A stretch of DNA of 64,000 bases from Anadara kagoshimensis. Taxonomy: Eukaryota; Mollusca; Bivalvia; Arcoida; Arcidae. The notes under the pieces were generated by a model, which saw nothing but the letters and a program-made list of their open reading frames with translations, did no database searches and was not told the origin of the DNA. Every line of letters starts with the position of its first letter. The first letter of the stretch is position 1. Location: positions 21,511,534 to 21,575,533 of the forward strand of contig CM037874.1 of the NCBI GenBank assembly GCA_021292105.1, written 5' to 3'. A program made the translations under genes and the position numbers. Below, in pieces: positions 12,169-55,395 of the stretch.

Positions 12169-13043
12169 CAGGGGCGTAGCCAGGCGTACGTTTGTACGCA
12201 AAAACGTCCACATCGTTTTCGCAAAAAAAAAAATCGAGAGAGAGAGAGTATAATATATTTCTTATATCAAACCGTTGGTCTTCACCGGAAATGTTATATA
12301 CGAATTCGGTTTATACCTGACTTCGATAGCCTCTGAGGTGCGGTTCCGGTGTTGTCTTGACTTTGCCGGCATGGCAAAACAATTGAAACTATCTGATTTG
12401 TTTTCGGCTTCAAAAGCCGATAACTCGAGCGCAGTTAGTCCAGCAGCTCAACAGCAGAATCCAGATACACAAGATAAACCTGAGGGTATAAGTAAACCAA
12501 CATCATCAACTTCAAATGTCCATAAACCTGGGCCAAAGTATCCCGATCTTTTCGCTTTGAATAATGATGAGTTGAGATGCACCAATACAAAACTCCAGCT
12601 TCTCACAGAAACATGGGAAACGGCCCATAAATATCAATTCCCAGTAAGGTATAACAATTACACTAAAGAACTTCTACTAGCCATTCGTCACGTTTCATTA
12701 TGTATTAACGCAATATATTTACAAATATATTTCCTCTCCTCCGTTTAACCTCACCACTATATTAATTGAACTCCCATTTTAACTTGACTTTCTCAATTAT
12801 TGAGTGTGTTGTTTTCGTAGTGCTTATGCCATACAACATCAGATCCCCTTGTACCTCGTCTTCAGGTTTAAGAATGAACCAGTTTTCAAAAGAACGACAA
12901 AAACTACCACAGCATAGCATAAAATTATAAGAAAAATTCTGATAAATAGCGCCCTGGAGGGCCGAAAATTCGCATCAGGGCGGCCCCCAAACCCCCTGCC
13001 CTCTTTAGGCGTCCACTTCATAAACACCCCAGCTACGCCCCTG
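12169..13043 (+). mobile_element. Deleted hAT-like DNA transposon (875 bp)
   Basis: The left end CAGGGGCGTAGCCAGG and right end (complement) CAGGGGCGTAGCTGGG share a perfect 12-bp terminal inverted repeat of a type common in animal hAT elements. The right end carries the G/C-rich AGGGGGTTTGGGGG-type subterminal block (complement, near 12980-13000). The element encloses a transposase first exon (12371-12643), but only about 400 bp follow it, so the body of the transposase has been lost. The flanks share TTTTC (5 bp) rather than the 8-bp duplication typical of hAT; this mismatch is unexplained. Family assignment is inference from ends plus the exon. Confidence 0.65.
12371..12643 (+). pseudogene. 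hAT-like transposase, first coding exon only
   Basis: The open frame starting at the ATG at 12371 begins with MAKQLKLSDLFSASKA, the basic-then-LSDLF style of N-terminus seen in hAT/ZMYM1-like transposases. A Ser/Gln/Pro-rich linker follows, then a conserved-looking segment with PDLFALNNDEL and ETWETAHKYQFP. In TTF/ZMYM1-like hAT transposases a tract ending in Y-x-F-P leads into the zinc finger. Exactly 91 codons end at FP before GTAAGG, a good splice donor in phase 0. The frame reads on in sequence to 12748 but with AT-rich, non-conserved residues. The TTF finger, DDE catalytic region and dimerisation domain are absent between here and the right terminus, so this is an exon remnant. The domain call rests on pattern recognition only. 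Confidence 0.5.
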
Positions 13044-16865: not shown

Positions 16866-17216
16866 CTGTGCGTGTAACTCCAACACTCAGTCCACTGCTC
16901 GCTCCGTAAGTGGTAGGTCGTGGGTTCGAACCCCGGCCGGGTCTGACCCAAGACTTAAAAGTGGGTAGTGACTGTTCTTTCGCCAAGCACTCGGCATTAC
17001 GAAATGAAAGTCACGGTTCTTTCGGATGGGAACTTAAAATAAACGAGGTCCCGTGTCTTGGTAGGCTTGGCACGATAAAGAACCCTGCTGTATAATGTCA
17101 TCAGCGAAACGCATAGGCAAAATTTCTGCACCTTCGCCTATAGCTGTCGATGTCTCAATATAAGTGAAATATTCTTGACTGGGACGTTAAACACCATTAC
17201 TACTACTACTACTACT
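16866..17216 (+). mobile_element. SINE type 2, full length with (CTA)n tail
   Basis: The head has B box GTGGGTTCGAACCCCGGCCG, then GGTCTGACCCAAGACTTAAA, GAAAGTCACGGTTCTTTCGG and AAAGAACCCTGCTGTATAAT. The shared tail TATAAGTGAAATATTCTTGA with CTGGGACGTTAAACACCATT runs into a (CTA)n run. Short frames across it encode only SINE-derived peptide. Confidence 0.8.
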
Positions 17217-25154: not shown

Positions 25155-25170
25155 CTAATGGAATATATAT

Positions 25171-26833
25171 ACACCTGTGTACAAAAAAGAAGACCCCAAA
25201 AATGTAAAAAATTACAGACCCATATCTCTCTTGAGTATTTTAGCCAAAGTCATGGAACGATGTGTTTACAAACATGTCTATAATTTTTTATTAGATAACA
25301 ACCTAATTTCTTATCTTCAATCCGGTTTCAAACCTGGGGATTCTACAATTAACCAGCTTCTTTTTATTACTAATGACATAGGCAAAGCTTTAGACGACGG
25401 TAAAGAAATACGTGTAGTGTTCTGTGATATTAGTAAAGCATTTGATAGAGTTTGGCATAAAGGACTCATTCATAAACTTTATTCAATCGGGGTTAGGGGG
25501 AAATTACTTATGTGGTTTAAATCATACTTGTCTAATCGTAAACAACGCGTTCTTCTTAGAAATGGTTACTCTTCGTGGAAAGAAATAAATTCTGGTGTCC
25601 CTCAGGGCTCTATACTTGGTCCTCTTCTTTTTCTTATTTATATAAATGATATAGTTTTAGATATTCAAAGTAATATACGATTGTTTGCTGATGATACATC
25701 ACTTTATTTGATAGTTGAAGACGCTTATTCAGCCGCAGAAAAACTTAACATTGACTTAGATAGGATACATTCTTGGGCAAATAAATGGTTAGTTACTTTC
25801 AATCCACAAAAAACTGAATCCATGATAATAAGCAGAAAAAGAATAAAACCGTTTCATCCACAGTTATATATGAATAACGTTCCCATAAACGAAGTTGAAA
25901 TACATAAACACCTTGGTATTTTTTTCACTGAAGACGGTTACTGGAAATATCACGTTGACCAAATAATAACAAAGGCATTGACAAGAATTTCTCTTTTCCG
26001 TAAAATTAAATTTAAAATTGATCGATCCGCTCTTCAAAAAATTTACTTTACTTTTATCAGACCCGTTCTTGAATATGCCGACGTAATTTGGGACAATATC
26101 AGTTGTGAACAACAAAAACAATTAGAACAAATTAATATTGAAGCAGCTAGAATTGTTACAGGGGCGACCAAATTTTGCAGCATCGATTTATTATACAAAG
26201 AAACTGGGTGGGAAACTTTAAATTATAGGAGAAAGAAACACAGACTTATTCTATTTTATAAAATGTACCATGGACTATCTCCAGAATACCTTTCAAATAT
26301 AGTACCTCACAGTTATCTAGAAACACACTCTTATCCAACTCGAAATAGAGAAAATCTTCATACGTTTCTATGTAATTCAACATCTTTTTTTAATTCTTTC
26401 TTGCCCTGCACCGTTCGTGACTGGAATTCAATACCTACTAACATTCGCAACGATGAATCAATACAAGTTTTCAAAAAATATTTTGACAAACGTAATGATG
26501 TTCCAAAATACTTTCAAAGCGGTTCACGTCTAGGACAAATCTACCACGCCAGAATAAGAATGGAATGTAGCACTCTCAATGCACACCTATTTAACAAAAA
26601 TATTATTGACAACCCTTTTTGTAGATGTGGTCATATTGAATCCTCTGAGCATTTCTTCTTAAAATGCCCACTTTATAGACAATTACGTCAACAAACCATT
26701 TTCTCTCTACCCTATAATATAACTATAAATTTTTTATTATATGGTGATGTTGTAAACCTTACTGTTGATGAAAATATCTATGCTTTCGAAGTTGTTCAAA
26801 AATATATATTATTATCCAAAAGATTTTGTCAGT

Positions 26834-26835
<2 letters not shown>
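25171..26835 (+). CDS. LINE reverse transcriptase, 5'-truncated ORF2
   Basis: Non-LTR retrotransposon polymerase that would copy LINE RNA into nicked target DNA. The frame enters at the truncation point as T-P-V-Y-K-K-E-D; no genuine start codon is present, and GTG at 25177 is only an interior codon. Counting from 25177, YRPISLLS is at about residue 13, motif A FCDISKAFD at 82-90, motif B SGVPQGSILGPLLF at 139-152 and the catalytic FADDTSLY at 170-177. A thumb/connection region follows (LEQINIEAARIVTGATKF). Near the C-terminus is a Cys/His knuckle, CRCGHIESSEHFFLKC. The 552 codons are uninterrupted, so the copy looks young, but the N-terminal apurinic endonuclease is missing and it cannot be autonomous. 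The motif set fits the CR1/jockey group; the exact clade is unresolved. Confidence 0.9.
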
Positions 26836-27232: not shown

Positions 27233-29401
27233 TCCCTTATACCACCAAACCTGGTTACTTCAAACTCAAATACTGGATAAATGTGGCGTTAATATGACGT
27301 TATATATACATCAGTAACCAAATGAAAGAACAATTATCGCTTTTACAAAAACCCTAAATATTTCAAAACCAAAAACCCTCAATATAACAAAACCGACAAG
27401 TGTCAAATTCCTGCTGAACAAGCATGTAATTTTTGTCTATTGCAGGATGAGATTACTAAACTATTTTGATATAAATTTACATTCAAGTGTTTCCTTGAAA
27501 TATTCGTAAACTCAAAAGAAATGTTGAAATATGTTTTGCAAGTAATGGTTAAATTGGAATATATAACAAGTTACGAACGCTTTGCAAAAAACCAAAAAAA
27601 ATCTATCAGTAGTTAAATATATCTCATCGTTATTTGTGGAAAAAATTTAAGTCAGCAGTTCAAGGAAAAGTTGTATGCATAAAACTAAGAGTAATACATT
27701 TCTGGCTGTTTATCTTAGTCATTTTAAATTTAACTTGACGAAATGGTGTGTGCTTATACTGAAACGAAGATTTATAGTTTAATTTATGCAAAATGTTTGA
27801 TGGGGAAACTATACGCAAAAAATCCTTGTCGTCCCCGGTTATGTTGGAGATGTTCATCTGCTTTGTCACTACGGTACTGCTTATATTATCTGGACACATT
27901 TCCCTTAATTGCCGGTTTAAATTGATGTTCAAACAATTTGCAAAAGGTTTATTTTTGTGATAAGGAGACCAATCTTTAAAAATTATAGCATAGCTTCAGA
28001 ACTGAATTTACCGATTTCTCCAATATTGTTCAACTATACACGTGTGCGAATGAAAGGCCTCAGTTCAATACCTAAGCCACAGAATCCAAAAGTAACTTAA
28101 GTTTGGAATGTAAACCACGGTCGAGCATAGTGGTAGAATTTCAGTCGACATTTTTATGTTCATATTTGGCAAGACAATCTACGACTAATTACAAGTCTCA
28201 GATTGTAAAAGATACCATTTTTGTTGACATAATTACTGACTTGACAACTGTAACAACTGGCCTTAAGATAAGACCTGGTATCGGTTGTCAAAACATTATA
28301 TCGCGAAAAGTATTCGTTGATTCGCGACACGACACGTCCATCATCACCCCGTGTTCTTACTGGGTTACCAAATTACACCGGACATTCCAGCTCTATCATT
28401 CTTGGTGTAAACCATTCCAAAACATTGCACTGTACAAACAATGTAATTCAAACATATAAAAGATCACGATTCTGACAAAGCTTCTCGATGACGTCCAGAA
28501 CCCATCAGTAAGCAGACGAAACAGATTCCTAAATATTTAACTTTTGTAAACAGCTGCTAGTTAAAGTACTTATATCAGAAAGAATTTTCTCATTTTCATC
28601 CCACCAGGTTTGGTATTTTTGTCTTTAAGTATATATATCCAATTAAACCGGGAAATGTCACGCGAAAGACGTTGTAAATAGAACATGCAGTTTTAAGTTC
28701 GACCTTGTTACATCAAGATTGCACAGCATAAAACACAATTTCAGCACGAACTGTAAAATTGATTTAATTAAATACCAAATCATGACAAAAAATGAAAGAA
28801 AAAATACTTAAAGAATTTTGATTAAAAATTGTAATCTCGCCGACTTTATCGTCTGCTTTAAAAACAAAACCTGATTAATCGCGCCTCAGATGATTTTTGA
28901 AAAAAAATGTCGCTAACGATTGGGTTTTATCCAAGATAAGCTTATTAAGGTTTTTATATATTTTTGTTGAAATACAAGATGTTTATTTATTAAATCTAAA
29001 AATACAAAATTTTTGATTGTATATATTTTAGCAGCATATGAAAATTATCTATGCCGAGTATTTAAAAATTAAATGCAAAAAGATAAAAATAAAATATATT
29101 AGTATCGTAAAGGTCGTTCTACTCACTTTAAATAATGGTAAAATATAAAGTATCAATTTCAAAAATAAATAAATAAATAAATAAAGATAAAAATAAGAAT
29201 AAGCACTCTCCAAACATCAATTGAATAGCAAAGCTTCAGCAACTGTGGAACTTCTGGTTTTTTTGGCCAAATTATTTTGCAAAACATATTGATCTAATAT
29301 TTTTTGTCATTTGCAGTTTTTTGTTTTTTTTTTTTTACACAGAAGTATTGCATAAAAACTAAATTAAATTGCACAAATGGCATTGTAATATGTTTTACGG
29401 T
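27233..29401. other. Repeat-poor, gene-free stretch
   Basis: The longest frame (28103-28459, +, 118 codons) has no recognisable domain and I do not call it. No SINE or MITE of the window's families is seen. It lies 3' of Twist. Confidence 0.4.
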
Positions 29402-30039: not shown

Positions 30040-30633
30040 TCAGTGTCCCGACATTGCCCAGGCTCCTTCCATTCTCCAAGCAGAGAAAGCGTAACTAAGC
30101 CTCTCACTGGCCACATAATTACAACTGGCTCCATCAGAACTAAAATTATCGTCAGTTCTTAACACTTGGTATAAAAAGTCAATATACCTTGATGCTAATT
30201 TTAGAGTCTGAATTTTACTTAATTTGTCTGAAGGTAATGTTGGAACTATTTTACGTAACTGCGCAAAAGCGTCATTTAAACTTTGTGTCCTCTGCCTCTC
30301 TCGAATGTTTGCCAGACACCTTTGATTTTGAATGTCATCAATCGTCTGAGTTGGCCCCTTCTTCCGTTGTTTTTTGCAAGGTGCGTCATTAGAACTCTCC
30401 GGTGAAGAAGATTCACTATAACTGTCACTCATTTTGCTAAATGTCCGTTTCCTGGATTTTCCTTTGGCTTTATATTGTAAACAAGACTCGGAGTTCAAAT
30501 TTTCCTGATATTCTTGTTTGATATTTGAAATCATAAGATTATTTTGATGTTGATCCATATCGTAGACAAGAGTTTCCGGACCCATCATGTTGTGTTGCGG
30601 GATCATACCCGAACTAAGCGCTGTCAAAACCAT
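30040..30633 (-). CDS. twist: Twist-family bHLH transcription factor
   Basis: Nuclear DNA-binding regulator of mesoderm and mesenchyme; bHLH dimers bind CANNTG E-boxes. The frame is complete in one exon: ATG at 30633-30631, TGA at 30042-30040, 197 residues, similar in size to vertebrate Twist. The N-terminal half is low in recognisable structure (Met/Gln/Asn-rich, then a Ser-rich stretch at about 69-82) with two basic clusters, KGKSRKR (57-63) and KKQRKKG (87-93), likely nuclear-localisation signals. The bHLH spans about 104-158: basic region [15 protein letters not shown], loop PTLPSDKL, helix 2 [20 protein letters not shown]. The C-terminal WR/Twist box, [17 protein letters not shown] (180-196), separates Twist from Hand, Scleraxis, Paraxis and other bHLH relatives. 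Codon 106-107 gives QRCLAN where most Twists have QRVMAN, a small lineage difference. Neighbours are gene-free on both sides. Confidence 0.96.
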
Positions 30634-30724
30634 TAATTACAGCCAAAAAATATATAATGAACTGATTTTTTTCTCTCTTTTTGCTGCAAAGCTCACACAA
30701 CTGCGAATTTTAAAACTAATCGAG

Positions 30725-36655: not shown

Positions 36656-36993
36656 TCGATAGCAGCACGTCACCAAATACTTTTGAATGACATTATTATT
36701 TCATTAAAAAAATCAAAAGTAGCACATGCCAGATTTTCCGACACGCCATTAGTACAACGCCAGTGATGTACTGGATCTTGGTGATGGTTCTAACAGACAT
36801 CAGCAAAGACATATTTAACAGGATGAAAATTGACTTTAACTGTGGAATATTTCAACTCACTTCCGCATTTAAGAGTTTTAGTAATCCCTTTCCCACGCTA
36901 TTTCTGACGGAGTAAATACGAAAGCAGAGACTCATTCACAGGAGTATGTATCAGTCATCATGATCATGATGTAAACACACAGTTGTAGAATAA

Positions 36994-37591
36994 ATGCATA
37001 ACATGGTGCTCTCGAAAACACATAAATCTAGCCAGCTTTTTTCTCTTTTTTGTTTTTCCTATTTTCTCGCTTTTTTGAAAATTCATCAACCAGTGTTCAT
37101 TCTAGTAAGGGGTATGGATCTCCCATTTTGTCAAATTAAAATAATCAAATTTCTTTTTTCTGATTATTGCACATTTACATAATATCGATAATAATAATAA
37201 TTAGTTATTTTATTATAGTGTCACACATTAATACACATTTAATATGTACATACATAAAAATGGAAAACAGAAAATACATGTATTATAATTACAGTGTACA
37301 TTATTGCATGTCAAATGACCCCATCGCTAAGGCCTTTGTGAACCATATTTAATATTATATGAATGATAAAATATTGATTTTCATAAGATGTTTTTAACGA
37401 AAGTTTATGAAAATGGTCCTTCTGATAATCCTTGAATGAACATATAAATCTGTCGGTTTTTCTGTTTTGTTTTCCATTTTTTCGCTATTTATCCGTATAA
37501 GGAACATATGGCCATAAATCTCCTATTTCGCCCAATGACCCCATTGTTAAAGCCTAGATGGCCATACTGAACATTGCATATGTTAAGGTGT
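36994..37591. repeat. Degenerate ~205-bp tandem units (left part, interrupted)
   Basis: Related blocks are AATTCATCAACCAGTGTTCA with TTCTAGTA near 37080, AATGACCCCATCGCTAAGGC near 37312, GAAAATGGTCCTTCTGATAA near 37408 and AATGACCCCATTGTTAAAGC near 37532. The series resumes right of the transposon at 40542. Confidence 0.6.
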
Positions 37592-37815
37592 GTGGGACCC
37601 CTATATGTAGTAACTACCACAAATGTAGTAACGGTCACAAATGTAATAAAATTGTGTCACATATGTAGTAACGAACCACAAATGTAGGAACGACCGTTAC
37701 CACAAATGTAGTAACAATTTTTGTTACCACAAATGTAGTAAATGAAAACCGCTATATGTAGTAACGAAAATTTCGAAATCTGAACGTTAGAAACCAACAT
37801 TTAAGGTGCGTTCTA

Positions 37816-37918
37816 ACCCGATAGAAGCGACTTTTAACGCGTTAGAAGTGACTTTTAACTCGATAGAATGGAATTCTATCCCGATAGAAGTGGCTCTGAT
37901 TCCGATATAAGTGACTTT
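37816..37918 (+). repeat. ~21-bp tandem units inside the TIR transposon
   Basis: Variants of CGATAGAAGTGACTTTTAAC repeat about five times, with an internal reversed piece (GGAATTCTATCCCGATAGAA). Confidence 0.7.
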
Positions 37919-38269
37919 ATTAAATACCAAAGAAAAAATATATATGTATAAATTGTTAATTTTGCTGGGTTTTTTTCTATTTACATGTACTTGAAACAAT
38001 TAGTGTCACATAAGCGGCACATTACAAAATGATTAGCATAACATGTAATAGTAATTCAGATATAAATGTAATAAATAAATAATAATAATAACTACTAGTA
38101 TCTGATAATCCTTGTAAGGGTGTTACCCCTGTACTATGTTATGTATTATGCGATGAGCGATAATGCCAATTGGCCTCTTATTTTCATTATACTTCGGTTT
38201 GTAAAATACATGTAAAATTCAGTTTTTAAATTTAAGTTTCTGGGTTTTCTGTATTTTTGCAGATTTAAG

Positions 38270-38640
38270 TAGGGTACATGTATTGATTATACTCCACGGC
38301 ACTTAAGATGTAGGAAGTATAATGCTGTTGGTCGGTCCCTCCGTCCGTCCATCAGTCAATTATAAGTTTTCCGCATTGTTTCCTAAACACTTTCAGATAC
38401 TAGAGTTTTTGAATGGGAGTCACCACAATGAGTTGCAGATCAAGTTAACGTTTTGTTTTACTACGAATCCGATCCTTTGCAATTGTCTGATAATTTTATT
38501 GAAATACTAGTAACAGTTTTCTGCAGTTTTTTTCGTAATAGCTTGCACATATTGAACTGATTTGGCATATAGGTCTACCATAATGTGTTACAGATCAAGT
38601 TCACGTTTCATTTTGCTTTGCTGAAATTTACGTTTTTACG
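38270..38640 (+). repeat. Dispersed repeat with (CCGT)-rich start
   Basis: GGTCGGTCCCTCCGTCCGTC precedes CACCACAATGAGTTGCAGAT, and a second diverged block ACCATAATGTGTTACAGATC follows 170 bp later. Layout is like widespread invertebrate repeats that carry GGACGGAC-type runs; it sits inside the TIR transposon. Confidence 0.45.
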
Positions 38641-38714
38641 ATGACTACACTTGATTTGGTCCAATATGTGGGAGCAACCTCACAAAAGTTTTTGTAATAT
38701 TTGCTGATTTTTAT

Positions 38715-38715
<1 letters not shown>

Positions 38716-38765
<50 letters not shown>
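38716..38765 (+). repeat. (TC)n microsatellite
   Basis: About 25 units, within the TIR transposon. Confidence 0.95.
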
Positions 38766-38768
<3 letters not shown>

Positions 38769-38874
38769 GCATTTACAATACTTCGTAAATATCGTTATTG
38801 AAGTATATGAACTGCATTTTATAAGATGTGTTAGTCTGTAAAAAAGAACGTCTGTAATCATATATGGTGTATCT

Positions 38875-39110
38875 TGTTCTTTCGCCAAGCACTGGCATTA
38901 CGAATGAAAGTCACGGTTCTTTCGGATGGGAACTTAAAAACAAACGAGGTCCCGTGTCACGGTGGGCTTGGCACGCTAAAGAACCCTGCTGTATAATGCC
39001 ATCAGCGCACCCACATGCAAAATTTCTGCACCTTCGCCTATAGCTGGCGACGTCTCGATATAAGTAAAATATTTTTGACTAGGACGTTAAACACCATTAC
39101 TCAACTCTAA
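38875..39110 (+). mobile_element. SINE type 2, head-less copy
   Basis: Starts TTCTTTCGCCAAGCACTGGC, then GAAAGTCACGGTTCTTTCGG, AAAGAACCCTGCTGTATAAT and the tail GACGTCTCGATATAAGTAAA with GACTAGGACGTTAAACACCA. The tRNA-like head is missing. Nested in the TIR transposon. Confidence 0.8.
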
Positions 39111-39383
39111 ATTCTTGTACCCTGCTTAGTGTTTAAGTGCACTTCTCACAGGCTAGTTGCGTACCCAGTCCGCTAGAAACAGATCATAGTGTGGTACTTC
39201 TTTAAGGTTTTCTCTTTTGTCTGCGGTTTAAATTAAACGGAAGTGTTAAAAAAAATTCAGATTGTTTTATTTTGTTACTAAATTCTTAGCTTATTATTTT
39301 TAATTTGCATTGCTATGGGTGGGTGTCCAGTTGCCTGCTGAATATTGCAATTTGACCAACTAGATGAACATTAATGCATCCCT

Positions 39384-39398
39384 CCCCCCCCCCCCCCC

Positions 39399-39432
<34 letters not shown>
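39384..39432 (+). repeat. Homopolymer C then A run
   Basis: About 16 C followed by about 33 A. It could be a retro-inserted tail or an assembly-fragile tract. Confidence 0.85.
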
Positions 39433-39434
<2 letters not shown>

Positions 39435-39699
39435 GACAAAATAAGTAATTTGGCGTTTTCTAAGTTTTAAGTGATGGTGTTGTATTTTGTTTTTGTCTAG
39501 TTATGTACGCATCTACCCCCCCCCCCCCATTTCACCCCACCCACACGAAGTCATCTGATCACTCTGTATTAATTGAAGCACTACAAACTGTCTATTTTGA
39601 TTTGTACAAAGGTTACACATTTTTAAGACTTTTGATAAAAATACAAATCTCAATGTCGATTCGACGTCATGTAATTTGCAGGAGTTAATTGAATGAATG

Positions 39700-39905
39700 T
39701 TCCACTTATATCAAGGCTTCACCAGCTATATGCAAAGTGGCAGAAAGTTTTACCCATGGAGTGCAATGGAATGCGCTAGGGTTCTTTAACGCGTCACACC
39801 TGGTTTTAGGGTCTTTTCCAAATACCCTAATGGCTTTCATTTTAAACTACCATTTTTAAGTCTTGGTCAGACCCTGCCCGGGTTGCGAACCCACGAACCT
39901 TCCTG
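39700..39905 (-). mobile_element. SINE type 2, minus strand, diverged
   Basis: In complement: TCCACTTATATCAAGGCTTC (tail), CTAGGGTTCTTTAACGCGTC, TTTTAAGTCTTGGTCAGACC, and CCCGGGTTGCGAACCCACGA (B box). Nested in the TIR transposon. Confidence 0.7.
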
Positions 39906-40541
39906 GAAGTGGAATAATAAACAAACCATAACAAATAAATAGAACACCAACCCGTCAAAGATGGGGGTGTGACCAAAAAAAAATCTCTTCGAAGCGGCGA
40001 CTAATAAATGTACTGGGGACGTGAAATTCATCTCGGGACTTCCTTGTAGTAGCCTTGTCAGAGGTGAAAATGACTGTTAACATGAACATGAACCGTGATA
40101 TTCCACATCGTTATGAGTAGCTTAGAACTGAAAATCGACTTGCATTTGACTCTGGCTAAACATGGTGAAACCGAGGAATAATATGGGTTTGGGGTTTCAT
40201 TCCTTAAATTACCCGACAGATATACCTTAAATTACCTGGCAGAGAAACCACAGTGCTTGTCATTAATTAACACTAGCCTAGATATTACCCATTTTGAAAA
40301 AAAATATATTTTATCATTTTTTAAATTTTACTACATTTGTGGTAAAATTAATTTGTTACATTTGTGGTAAAATTTTGTTGCTACATTTGTGGTAAAATTT
40401 TGCTACATTTGTGACCAACATTTACTACATATGTGACAAACCTTACTACATTTGTGGTTCGTTACTACATATGTGACACAATTTTATTACATTTGTGACC
40501 GTTACTACATTTGTGGTAGTTACTACATATAGGGGTCCCAC

Positions 40542-41000
40542 AAGGTGTTTTAGAAGAAAGCTTTTTTGAAAATGGCCCCTCTGAAAAATCCTTGCATGAA
40601 CACATAATCTGTCGGGTTTTCTTTTTTGTTTTCTGATTTTCTGGCCAATTTGAAAATTCATCAATCAGTGTTCATTCTAGTAGAGACTATAGATCCCTTA
40701 TTATTTATGATCCCATTGTTCAGACCTTAATAGGCCTTATTTATAATTTATGTTATGTTAAACATGTTTAACATAACATAAATTATAAACTTTCGATGTT
40801 ATGGCGTTTTAGATGAAAGTTTCTTGAAAATGACCCAAATCTTTGAAAAATACTTGATTGAACACTGATCATTGTTAACCAAACTATTTTACCATCTAAA
40901 ATTGAATGATTTAAAAAAGATATATCAGTTTTATTTACACAAGTTGTATAATTAAAAAAATGTTTACATTTTATTTTTTTCGATATTTTCATAATTTTGA
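40542..41000. repeat. Degenerate ~205-250-bp tandem units (right part)
   Basis: GAAAATGGCCCCTCTGAAAA near 40570, AAAATTCATCAATCAGTGTT near 40655 and GAAAATGACCCAAATCTTTG near 40826 continue the left series. Removing the transposon and one target copy restores a ~205-bp spacing. Confidence 0.6.
40740..40789. repeat. 50-bp perfect palindrome
   Basis: Every base from 40740 to 40764 pairs with 40789 back to 40765. The centre is TTAAACATGTTTAA with arms TTATAATTTATGTTATG. There is no loop. Confidence 0.9.
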
Positions 41001-52678: not shown

Positions 52679-55395
52679 AGTAAAACCTGTACATAAAGAC
52701 CACCTATAAGATCTAAAATATAGGGCTTTATAGGCAGATGGTCTTTATATACAAGGTATTTGTGGTTGCTATATGGAGCAAAGGAAGCTTGAATTATGAG
52801 TAGGTGGCCTATATATTGAGGTGGCACTTATAGCAGGTTTTATTTTAGACATATGGTTTTCATAAAGAGGTGATCACTAAAGCAGGGTTTTTTTCTGAAA
52901 TAACATGTGGTTTTATTGAGCTGGTAATATAGCAGGTTTTATTTTATAGAAATATGGTTTTTATACAGAGGTGGTCACTAAAGCAGGTTTTTTTCTGAAA
53001 TAACATGGGGTTTTATTGAGCTGGTAATATAGCAGGTTTTATTATATAGACATATGGTTGTTATACAGAGTTGGTCACTAAAGCAGGTTTTTTCTGAAAT
53101 AACAGGTGGTCTTATTTAGGTGGTCACTATAGCAGGTTTACTGTATAGACATATGGTTGTTATACAGAGTTGGTCACTTAAGCAGGTTTTTTCTGAAAAA
53201 ACAGGTGGTCTTATTGAGGTGGTCACTATAGCAGGTTTTACTATATACACATATGGTTGTTATATAGAGGTGGTCACTAAAGCAGATTTTTCTGAAATAA
53301 CATGTGGTCTTATTGAGGTGGTCACTATAGCAGGTTTTATTGTATAGACATATGGTTGTTATACAGAGTTGGTCACTAAAGCAGGGTTTTTTTCTGAAAT
53401 AACAGGTGGTTTTATTGATGTGGTCACTATAGCAGGTTTTACTGTATAGACATATGGTTGTTATACAGAGGTGGTCACTAAAGCAGATTTTTCTGAAATA
53501 ACAGGTGGTCTTATTGAGGTGGTCACTATAGCAGATTTTATTGTATAGACATTATGGTTGTTATACAGAGTTGGTCACTAAAGCAGGGTTTTTTCCTGAA
53601 ATAACAGGTGGTTTTATTGATGTGGTCACTATAGCAGGTTTTACTATATAGACATATGGTTGTTATATAGAGGTGGTCACTAAAGCAGATTTTTCTGAAA
53701 TAACAGGTGGTCTTATTGAGGTGGTCACTATAGCAGGTTTTACTGTATAGACATATGGTTGTTATACAGAGTTGGTCACTAAAGCAGGGTTTTTTTCTGA
53801 AATAAAAGGTGGTTTTATTGATGTGGTCACTATAGCAAGTTTTACTGTGTAGACATATGGTTGTTATACAGAGTTGGTCACTAAAGCAGGGTTTTTTCTG
53901 AAATAACAGGTGGTTTTATTGATGTGGTCACTATAGCAGGTTTTACTGTATAGACATATGGTTGTTATATGGAGGTGGTCACTAAAGCAGATTTTTCTGA
54001 AATAACAGGTGGTTTTATTGATGTGGTCACTATAGCAGGCTTTACTGTATAGACATATGGTTGTTATATAGAGGTGGTCACTAAAGCAGATTTTTCTGAA
54101 ATAACAGGTGCTTTTATTGGGGTGGTCACTATAGCAGGTTTTATTGTAAAGACAAATGGTTGTTATACAGAGTTGGTCACTAAAGCAGGGTTTGTTTCTG
54201 AAATAACAGGTGATTTTATTGATGTGGTCACTATAGCAGGTTTAACTGTATAGACATATGGTTGTTATACAGAGGTGGTCACTAAAACAGATTTTTCTGA
54301 AATAACAGGTGGTCTTATTGAGGTGGTCCCTATAGTAGGATTTACTGTATAGACATATGGTTGTTATATAGAGGTGGTCACTAAAGCAGGTTTTTTCTGA
54401 AATAACAGGTGGTCTTATTGAGGTGGTCTCTATAGTAGGATTTACTGTATAGACATATAATCTGTTTTTATATAGAGGTGGTCACTGTAGCAAGTTAACT
54501 GCATAGACAGGTAAGTTTTGTATACAGGTGGTCACTATAGCAGTAAGGTGGAATTTTTACATAGGTGGTCACTATTACAGGTTTTACTGCATAGACAGAT
54601 GGTCTTTATATTGAGGTGGTCACTATAGCAGGTTTAACTTTATATACAGGTGGTCTTTTGATATAGGTGGTCACAATAGCTGGCTTTACTGCATATTCAG
54701 ATTGTCTTTTTATATACATGTAGGTGGTTACTATAGAGATTTTACTGCACAGACAGGTGGCTTTTTAAATAGGTGGTCACTATAGCAGGTTTTTTTTAAT
54801 TGACAGGTGGCCTTTTTATACAGGTGGTCACTACAGCAGGTTTTTATATATTGGAAGGTGACCTTTTAATACAGGGGGTCACTATAGCAGGTTTTACATA
54901 TTGACAGGTGGCCCTTTTATACTGGTGGTCACTATAGCAGGTTTTGCTGCATAGGCATGTGGTCTAGAAGTGTACAGAAATGGTCACTATAGCAGGTTTT
55001 ATTGTATATGTGCTCTGTATACAGGGGAGTGGAGTATTTGTTTTTGATGTAGCAAAAGGATTCTTTCACTTATATCGAGACAGTAAGTTCTGGAATGGTG
55101 AAGGAAACCAGAATGTCTGAAGAAGGTCACCAACCTTCAGATAGCGAAAGTACAAACTAAGGTCTGCCCGAGAGAGATTCCAACCTAACCTGTGAGAGGC
55201 ACTGTGATCTGTAAGTGCATGCTTTAGACCACTTAGGCCACAAAGGCCCCCTATATACATGTATGAAGACTCTTGCTTTAGCAGGGTTCCTTGTATAGAC
55301 AAGTGGTCGTTTTAAAGAGGTGGAAACTATAGCAGGTTTCATTCTATAGACGGGTGGTCTTTTTTGAAGAGGTGGTCACTAAAACAGATTTTACC
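52679..55395. repeat. Large ~100-bp tandem array derived from MITE-D
   Basis: Between 52848 and 54470 the anchor GACATATGGTTGTTATACAG (or a variant) recurs about 17 times at 99-102-bp spacing. Each unit holds two related halves, one with GGTGGTCACTATAGCAGGTT and one with GGTCACTAAAGCAGATTTTT, so the basic module is about 50 bp. From 54470 to 55000 the array decays to ~50-60-bp single modules, then resumes after a SINE (55045-55245) to 55395. The left border starts ACAGTAAAACCTGTACATAA, and the right border ends AACAGATTTTACC, its rough complement. These are the termini of MITE-D. Frames across it are repeat artefacts. Confidence 0.9.
55045..55245 (-). mobile_element. SINE type 1 inserted in the tandem array
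   Basis: In complement: GGATTCTTTCACTTATATCG (tail), GGTGAAGGAAACCAGAATGT (middle), GAGAGATTCCAACCTAACC (degenerate B box), and GCTTTAGACCACTTAGGCCA (A box end). Confidence 0.78.

Follow-up and report, generated by a model that had tools for sequence, protein, structure and literature searches.

At positions 37592-40541 of the window (the whole 64-kb stretch of DNA analyzed) lies a 2,950-bp element that is very probably a recently moved, non-autonomous cut-and-paste DNA transposon mobilized in trans; a single copy is known here. Its ends, the duplication around them, the membership of both flanks in a single repeat unit, an array of a short motif, and the lack of any transposase found are direct observations, and among them are the marks of a non-autonomous terminal inverted repeat (TIR) transposon: inverted repeats, a duplication in a once-continuous target, and no transposase found. 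The initial annotation of this DNA had described a young, gene-less transposon with subterminal arrays. The TIRs, the motif, and the flanks all support that description, while its youth is something we infer from the identity of its ends and duplication copies.

Termini of the element

The element, its ends, and the duplication that flanks them are placed as follows:

37592-40541, the element, 2,950 bp (sequence read directly)
37585-37591, left copy of the target duplication AAGGTGT (AGGTG at 37586-37590 in a 5-bp reading)
40542-40548, right copy of the target duplication AAGGTGT (AGGTG at 40543-40547 in a 5-bp reading)
37592-37687, + strand, left terminal inverted repeat, 96 bp (97 bp counting from 37591)
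40446-40541, − strand, right terminal inverted repeat, 96 bp (97 bp counting to 40542)

The two arms show no difference over 97 bp inward from 37591 and 40542 and then diverge immediately; direct reading thus bears out the 96-bp perfect TIRs reported earlier and adds one outer base. With its 97 bp, this inverted repeat exceeds every other exact one of the window whose arms lie within 5 kb. The longest found in 20 first-order Markov simulations measured 15 to 20 bp, which rules out a chance inverted repeat. Among the best 30 inverted-repeat pairs with flanking duplications listed for the window, no other pair has such ends. The direct repeat that flanks the element ends stops at 7 bp, and a direct match of 7 bp at two random points of the window arose in 34 of 200,000 draws.

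The single copy seen would agree with a chance or segmental inverted duplication in which no transposon took part. We consider this extremely unlikely, however: the direct duplication sits at the exact end of both arms, the flanks together make up one repeat unit, and copies of the motif are confined to the ends.

The insertion site within a local repeat

Both flanks are part of a diverged local repeat that has sister units on either side of the element:

37300-37450, + strand, sister unit A of the target repeat, along which the joined flanks align
40690-40870, + strand, sister unit B of the target repeat, along which the joined flanks align when a 50-bp palindrome is omitted

For this comparison, 71 bases of the left flank were joined to 62 bases of the right flank, and 500 shuffled left flanks served as the control. 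Unit A scored 102 against the joined flanks and unit B without its palindrome scored 112, versus 77 in each case for the right flank alone; none of the 500 shuffled left flanks did as well against either unit. Because the joined flanks align in this way along both units, we read the two flanks as former neighbors in one continuous repeat unit.

The undivided unit B gave only a marginal result (89 versus 87), a score that 30 of the 500 shuffled left flanks also reached. Within this unit, about 200 bp to the right of the element, lies a perfect 50-bp palindrome (40740-40789; 25-bp arms, no spacer). Since its omission restores the alignment of unit B to the joined flanks (112 versus 89), the palindrome appears to be a small event of its own in unit B, either an insertion or an expansion.

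Whether the unsplit site carried a single AAGGTGT is less sharply answered by the sister sequences, with unit B favoring it and unit A not. Unit B without the palindrome prefers a single copy (112, versus 103 with two), as does a shorter stretch of the same unit (87 with one versus 79 with two), whereas for unit A two copies give the better score (111, versus 102 with one). The preference of unit A apparently stems from about 20 additional bases that immediately precede its insertion site; a shorter stretch of unit A scores 132 with one or two copies alike. For a further stretch, 36960-37130, the alignment starts at the final duplication bases and runs rightwards only; its score is 76 either way.

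Two readings of the duplication

The base preceding the left arm (T) is complementary to the base following the right arm (A), so the length of the duplication is ambiguous. In one reading, a 7-bp duplication (AAGGTGT) surrounds ends of the form GTGGG..CCCAC; in the other, a 5-bp duplication (AGGTG) surrounds ends that are one base longer, TGTGG..CCACA. The 7-bp AAGGTGT given in the initial annotation is indeed present at both junctions, but the 5-bp AGGTG reads equally well there. The empty site would be identical under the two readings and therefore cannot choose between them. From the base frequencies of the window, we calculate odds of about 1 in 4 for the single chance complementarity that the 7-bp reading demands and of about 1 in 9 for the two chance matches in the flanks that the 5-bp reading demands. 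On base composition, we thus have a mild preference for the 7-bp duplication.

Subterminal motif arrays

Each end of the element carries an array of a short motif, and an array of a different unit lies on the left side:

37600-37765, + strand, left subterminal array, 8 copies of a CACAWATGTAGTAAC-type motif, all in one direction
40327-40533, − strand, right subterminal array, 10 motif copies in mirror orientation to those on the left
37814-37918, + strand, 21-bp unit of another sequence, TAACCCGATAGAAGTGACTTT, present 5 times in tandem immediately inward of the left array

With up to 2 mismatches allowed, the 15-bp motif CACAWATGTAGTAAC has 16 matches in the 64 kb, and all 16 fall inside the element ends; 0.45 matches would be expected, and none of 100 shuffles reached 16. 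A looser search, in which up to 4 mismatches were allowed and at most 3 were seen, recovered 8 copies on the left and 10 on the right, just as the 8 to 10 copies per end first described had suggested. Their consensus is CACAAATGTAGTAAC. Eight motif positions are invariant over the 18 copies, although this total takes in the four copies of the inverted repeat once for each end: the outermost four are identical in both ends because they are located within the inverted repeat. When the inverted repeat is counted once, the copies are spaced 18 to 27 bp apart (mean, 22.2 bp), near two helical turns.

A 20-bp frame beginning 5 bases before the motif approaches GTTACYACAWWTGTRGTAAC, an imperfect palindrome. 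Over the 13 distinct copies, self-complementarity averages 5.69 of 10 pairs at this offset (−5), versus at most 3.92 at 23 other offsets. Single copies range from 3 to 8 complementary pairs out of 10, and for 5 of the 13 distinct copies the palindromic match does not exceed that of their own shuffles at P < 0.1. The array is probably a set of sites for a dimeric protein; the simplest candidates are the transposase and an accessory factor. En/Spm (CACTA), Ac/Ds, and similar transposons carry, close to each terminus, a series of short motifs that bind protein, as our element probably does; unlike our element, En/Spm has CACTA ends and 2- to 3-bp duplications, and Ac/Ds has hAT ends and 8-bp duplications. 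For tandem repeats in transposon ends, including those of Galileo, a role as secondary transposase-binding sites is proposed in PMC3573991.

The innermost left copy of the motif, ACCGCTATATGTAGTAAC (37748-37765), shares 17 of its 18 bases with the outermost copy, ACCCCTATATGTAGTAAC, which gives the impression of a former terminus enclosed within the current one. The 21-bp unit TAACCCGATAGAAGTGACTTT forms no array at the right end in the tandem-repeat listing of the window. When the strand of the left end was folded, z was −1.74 and 9 of 200 shuffles did as well; we did not count this as evidence.

Interior of the element and the surrounding window

Between the arrays, we found the following features:

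38717-38765, TC microsatellite in the element interior
38875-39116, + strand, partial copy of a dispersed repeat; identity with the window copies near 16973, 61536, and 51067 is 91, 82, and 79%, respectively, over 230-247 bp
39695-39903, − strand, another copy of this dispersed repeat, more decayed and oppositely oriented

Twenty-seven stop-to-stop frames of at least 40 amino acids overlap the element, the longest of which (89 amino acids) runs through the TC microsatellite. The initial annotation had seen no transposase frame, and a Pfam scan of 25 of these 27 frames likewise gave no transposase match; the two frames left out run through the TC microsatellite. The strongest Pfam match, DUF3915 (6.1e-05), fell in a microsatellite frame and below the curated cutoff. 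The dispersed repeat is presumably a tRNA-derived short interspersed element (SINE). Its more decayed copy is 63% identical over the longest aligned piece and 66 to 87% identical over shorter pieces. The interior thus appears to be old host-like material between identical ends, either captured or inserted later.

Elsewhere, the window looks eukaryotic: it holds dispersed repeats, a reverse-transcriptase frame (25159-26835; Pfam RVT_1), and, on the minus strand, a basic helix-loop-helix (bHLH) frame (30040-30636; Pfam HLH, 5e-17) that we take to be Twist-like. Judging by the SINE, the Twist-like frame, and the microsatellites, the source is presumably an animal, probably a mollusc. A further DNA element of 875 bp (12169-13043), unrelated to the first, has ends CAGGGGCGTAG../..CTACGCCCCTG and a 5-bp duplication, TTTTC, and we assume it to be like hAT5; a 164-amino-acid stop-to-stop frame within it (12254-12748) has no Pfam match at 0.1. 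A tandem array of a 99-bp unit (52812-55008) shows strong strand skew (GC skew, about +0.2) and leaves three 125-amino-acid stop-free frames on the minus strand.

Superfamily placement

The proposal in the initial annotation that the ends and the 7-bp duplication fit no known superfamily, and may mark a less described group, is not established. It was premature because the duplication may be 5 bp and because 7-bp duplications are recorded in several groups. These include Galileo of the P superfamily, in which three copies have 8 bp (PMC4168063); Dada, with 6 to 7 bp (PMC3706591); and Kyakuja and hAT7 of fungi (PMC12730594). Variants of hAT with 5-, 6-, and 7-bp duplications are described, hAT5 being the 5-bp form (PMC12730594), and the Ginger elements TDD-4 and TDD-5 have 5-bp duplications (PMC2836005). 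We leave the superfamily open and claim no new one.

If the duplication is 7 bp, the element might be a non-autonomous member of the P superfamily, resembling Galileo of Drosophila and having internally repetitive ends; we judge this unlikely. P ends begin with CA, which counts against it, and no P transposase was seen in the element. The 7-bp reading would require one accident only, the complementary outer base (about 1 in 4). Likeness is closest to the inverted-repeat-only copies of Galileo, which share with our element internally repeated ends, 7-bp duplications in one of our readings, and copies without transposase (PMC4168063, PMC3573991); the tandem repeats of Galileo ends are credited with secondary transposase-binding sites (PMC3573991). 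However, the Galileo inverted repeats described in these sources are mostly much longer than those here (892 to over 4,000 bp, although short ones exist), its ends have another sequence, and its target consensus is GTANTAC (PMC4168063) rather than AAGGTGT.

The 5-bp reading brings in a Ginger-like (integrase-type) non-autonomous element, with ends TGTGGGACC..GGTCCCACA and the duplication AGGTG, which we hold to be rather unlikely. The junctions are consistent with it, and the outer base pair then gives an inverted repeat of 97 bp. Ginger termini conform to TGTNR, and their inverted repeats measure about 40 to 270 bp in Ginger1 and 50 to 180 bp in Ginger2 (PMC2836005); our element resembles both in end type and in inverted-repeat length, with TGTNR termini only if the outer T/A is counted as part of the element. 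A survey of molluscs counted 98 Ginger elements (PMC10294476). However, among the Ginger families described in PMC2836005, duplications are usually 4 bp, with 5 bp only in TDD-4 and TDD-5, and the targets are CCGG/CCGT or RTATAY, neither of which is the site found here, TTAAGGTGTTTT. The element holds no integrase, and two further flank bases would have to match by chance (about 1 in 9).

Some other described group whose ends were not matched here, such as a hAT variant, a Mutator-like element, or a family already in Repbase, is a reasonable possibility, although we stop short of calling it probable. Long inverted repeats and the capture of host DNA, both characteristic of Mutator-like elements, speak for such an origin, but Mutator-like duplications are 8 to 11 bp, which does not fit a direct repeat that stops at 7 bp. 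The ends of hAT elements start with CAG or TAG, and those of our element are not of this type, a point against a hAT variant. The existence of hAT variants with 5-, 6-, and 7-bp duplications (PMC12730594) is a point in its favor. Very unlikely, in our estimation, is an undescribed superfamily whose transposase would bind a long phased array at each end and whose marks would be the ends GTGGGACC.., an exact 7-bp duplication, and arrays in which an imperfectly palindromic 20-bp site recurs at intervals of about two helical turns.

Dada, Kyakuja, and RAG-like/Transib transposons were considered and rejected. Dada is defined by having no terminal inverted repeats and by insertion in small RNA genes (PMC3706591); inverted repeats are present here, and the window has no Rfam match at the gathering score that would indicate a small RNA gene target. 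Kyakuja has CA..TG termini and a 7-bp duplication but no inverted repeats (PMC12730594), whereas our element has inverted repeats and either GT..AC or TG..CA termini. The RAG-like transposons of molluscs would share a 5-bp duplication with our element if the 5-bp reading is right, but their 5′ terminus is CAC (PMC7204232), whereas the ends here start with GTG or TGTG.

Searches in prokaryotic and viral collections

Neither the exact 23-base end nor a two-motif pattern occurred in viral contigs (0 matches each); a 14-base end occurred there at 21 loci. The 15-base motif was found at at least 117 loci in prokaryote genome contigs, with one exact match in each of the 80 listed. BLAST of the element against 138 prokaryotic and viral loci returned 0 matches at 1e-3, and BLAST of the whole window against the same loci returned one, outside the element (28957-29045, to locus L032). 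Motif-like sites within 2 mismatches numbered two in 9 of the 138 loci and more than two in none. We treated the motif and end matches as chance, and consider these collections an unlikely source of relatives. In the literature, a search with five strings of motif or end letters found no occurrence.

Proposed mobilization and age

For the non-autonomous transposon that we favor, a transposase from an autonomous relative elsewhere in the genome would be supplied in trans. It would bind, probably in dimeric form, the imperfect palindromes spaced about every 22 bp at each end. The bound transposase would then pair the two ends and cut at the outer boundary, which we place at (T)GTGGGACC, and insertion with a 5- or 7-bp stagger would generate the flanking duplication. 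The interior would have no coding role and would simply carry old host-like repeats.

Arms without a difference over 97 bp and an identical 7-bp duplication fit a recent insertion; recency is suggested because both the arms and the duplication copies are identical. By the rule of three, the upper limit on divergence between the arms is near 3%. Alternatively, the identical ends could result from gene conversion between the arms.

Gene-less passengers moved by an enzyme made elsewhere are common, and as it stands, this element is one more gene-less DNA transposon. A partner transposase of some hitherto unknown class would mean an additional superfamily, although nothing here shows that. With ends identical over 97 bp and its duplication intact, the element suggests a family of recent date that may still be active, and the end array provides a clean query with which to find its autonomous partner.
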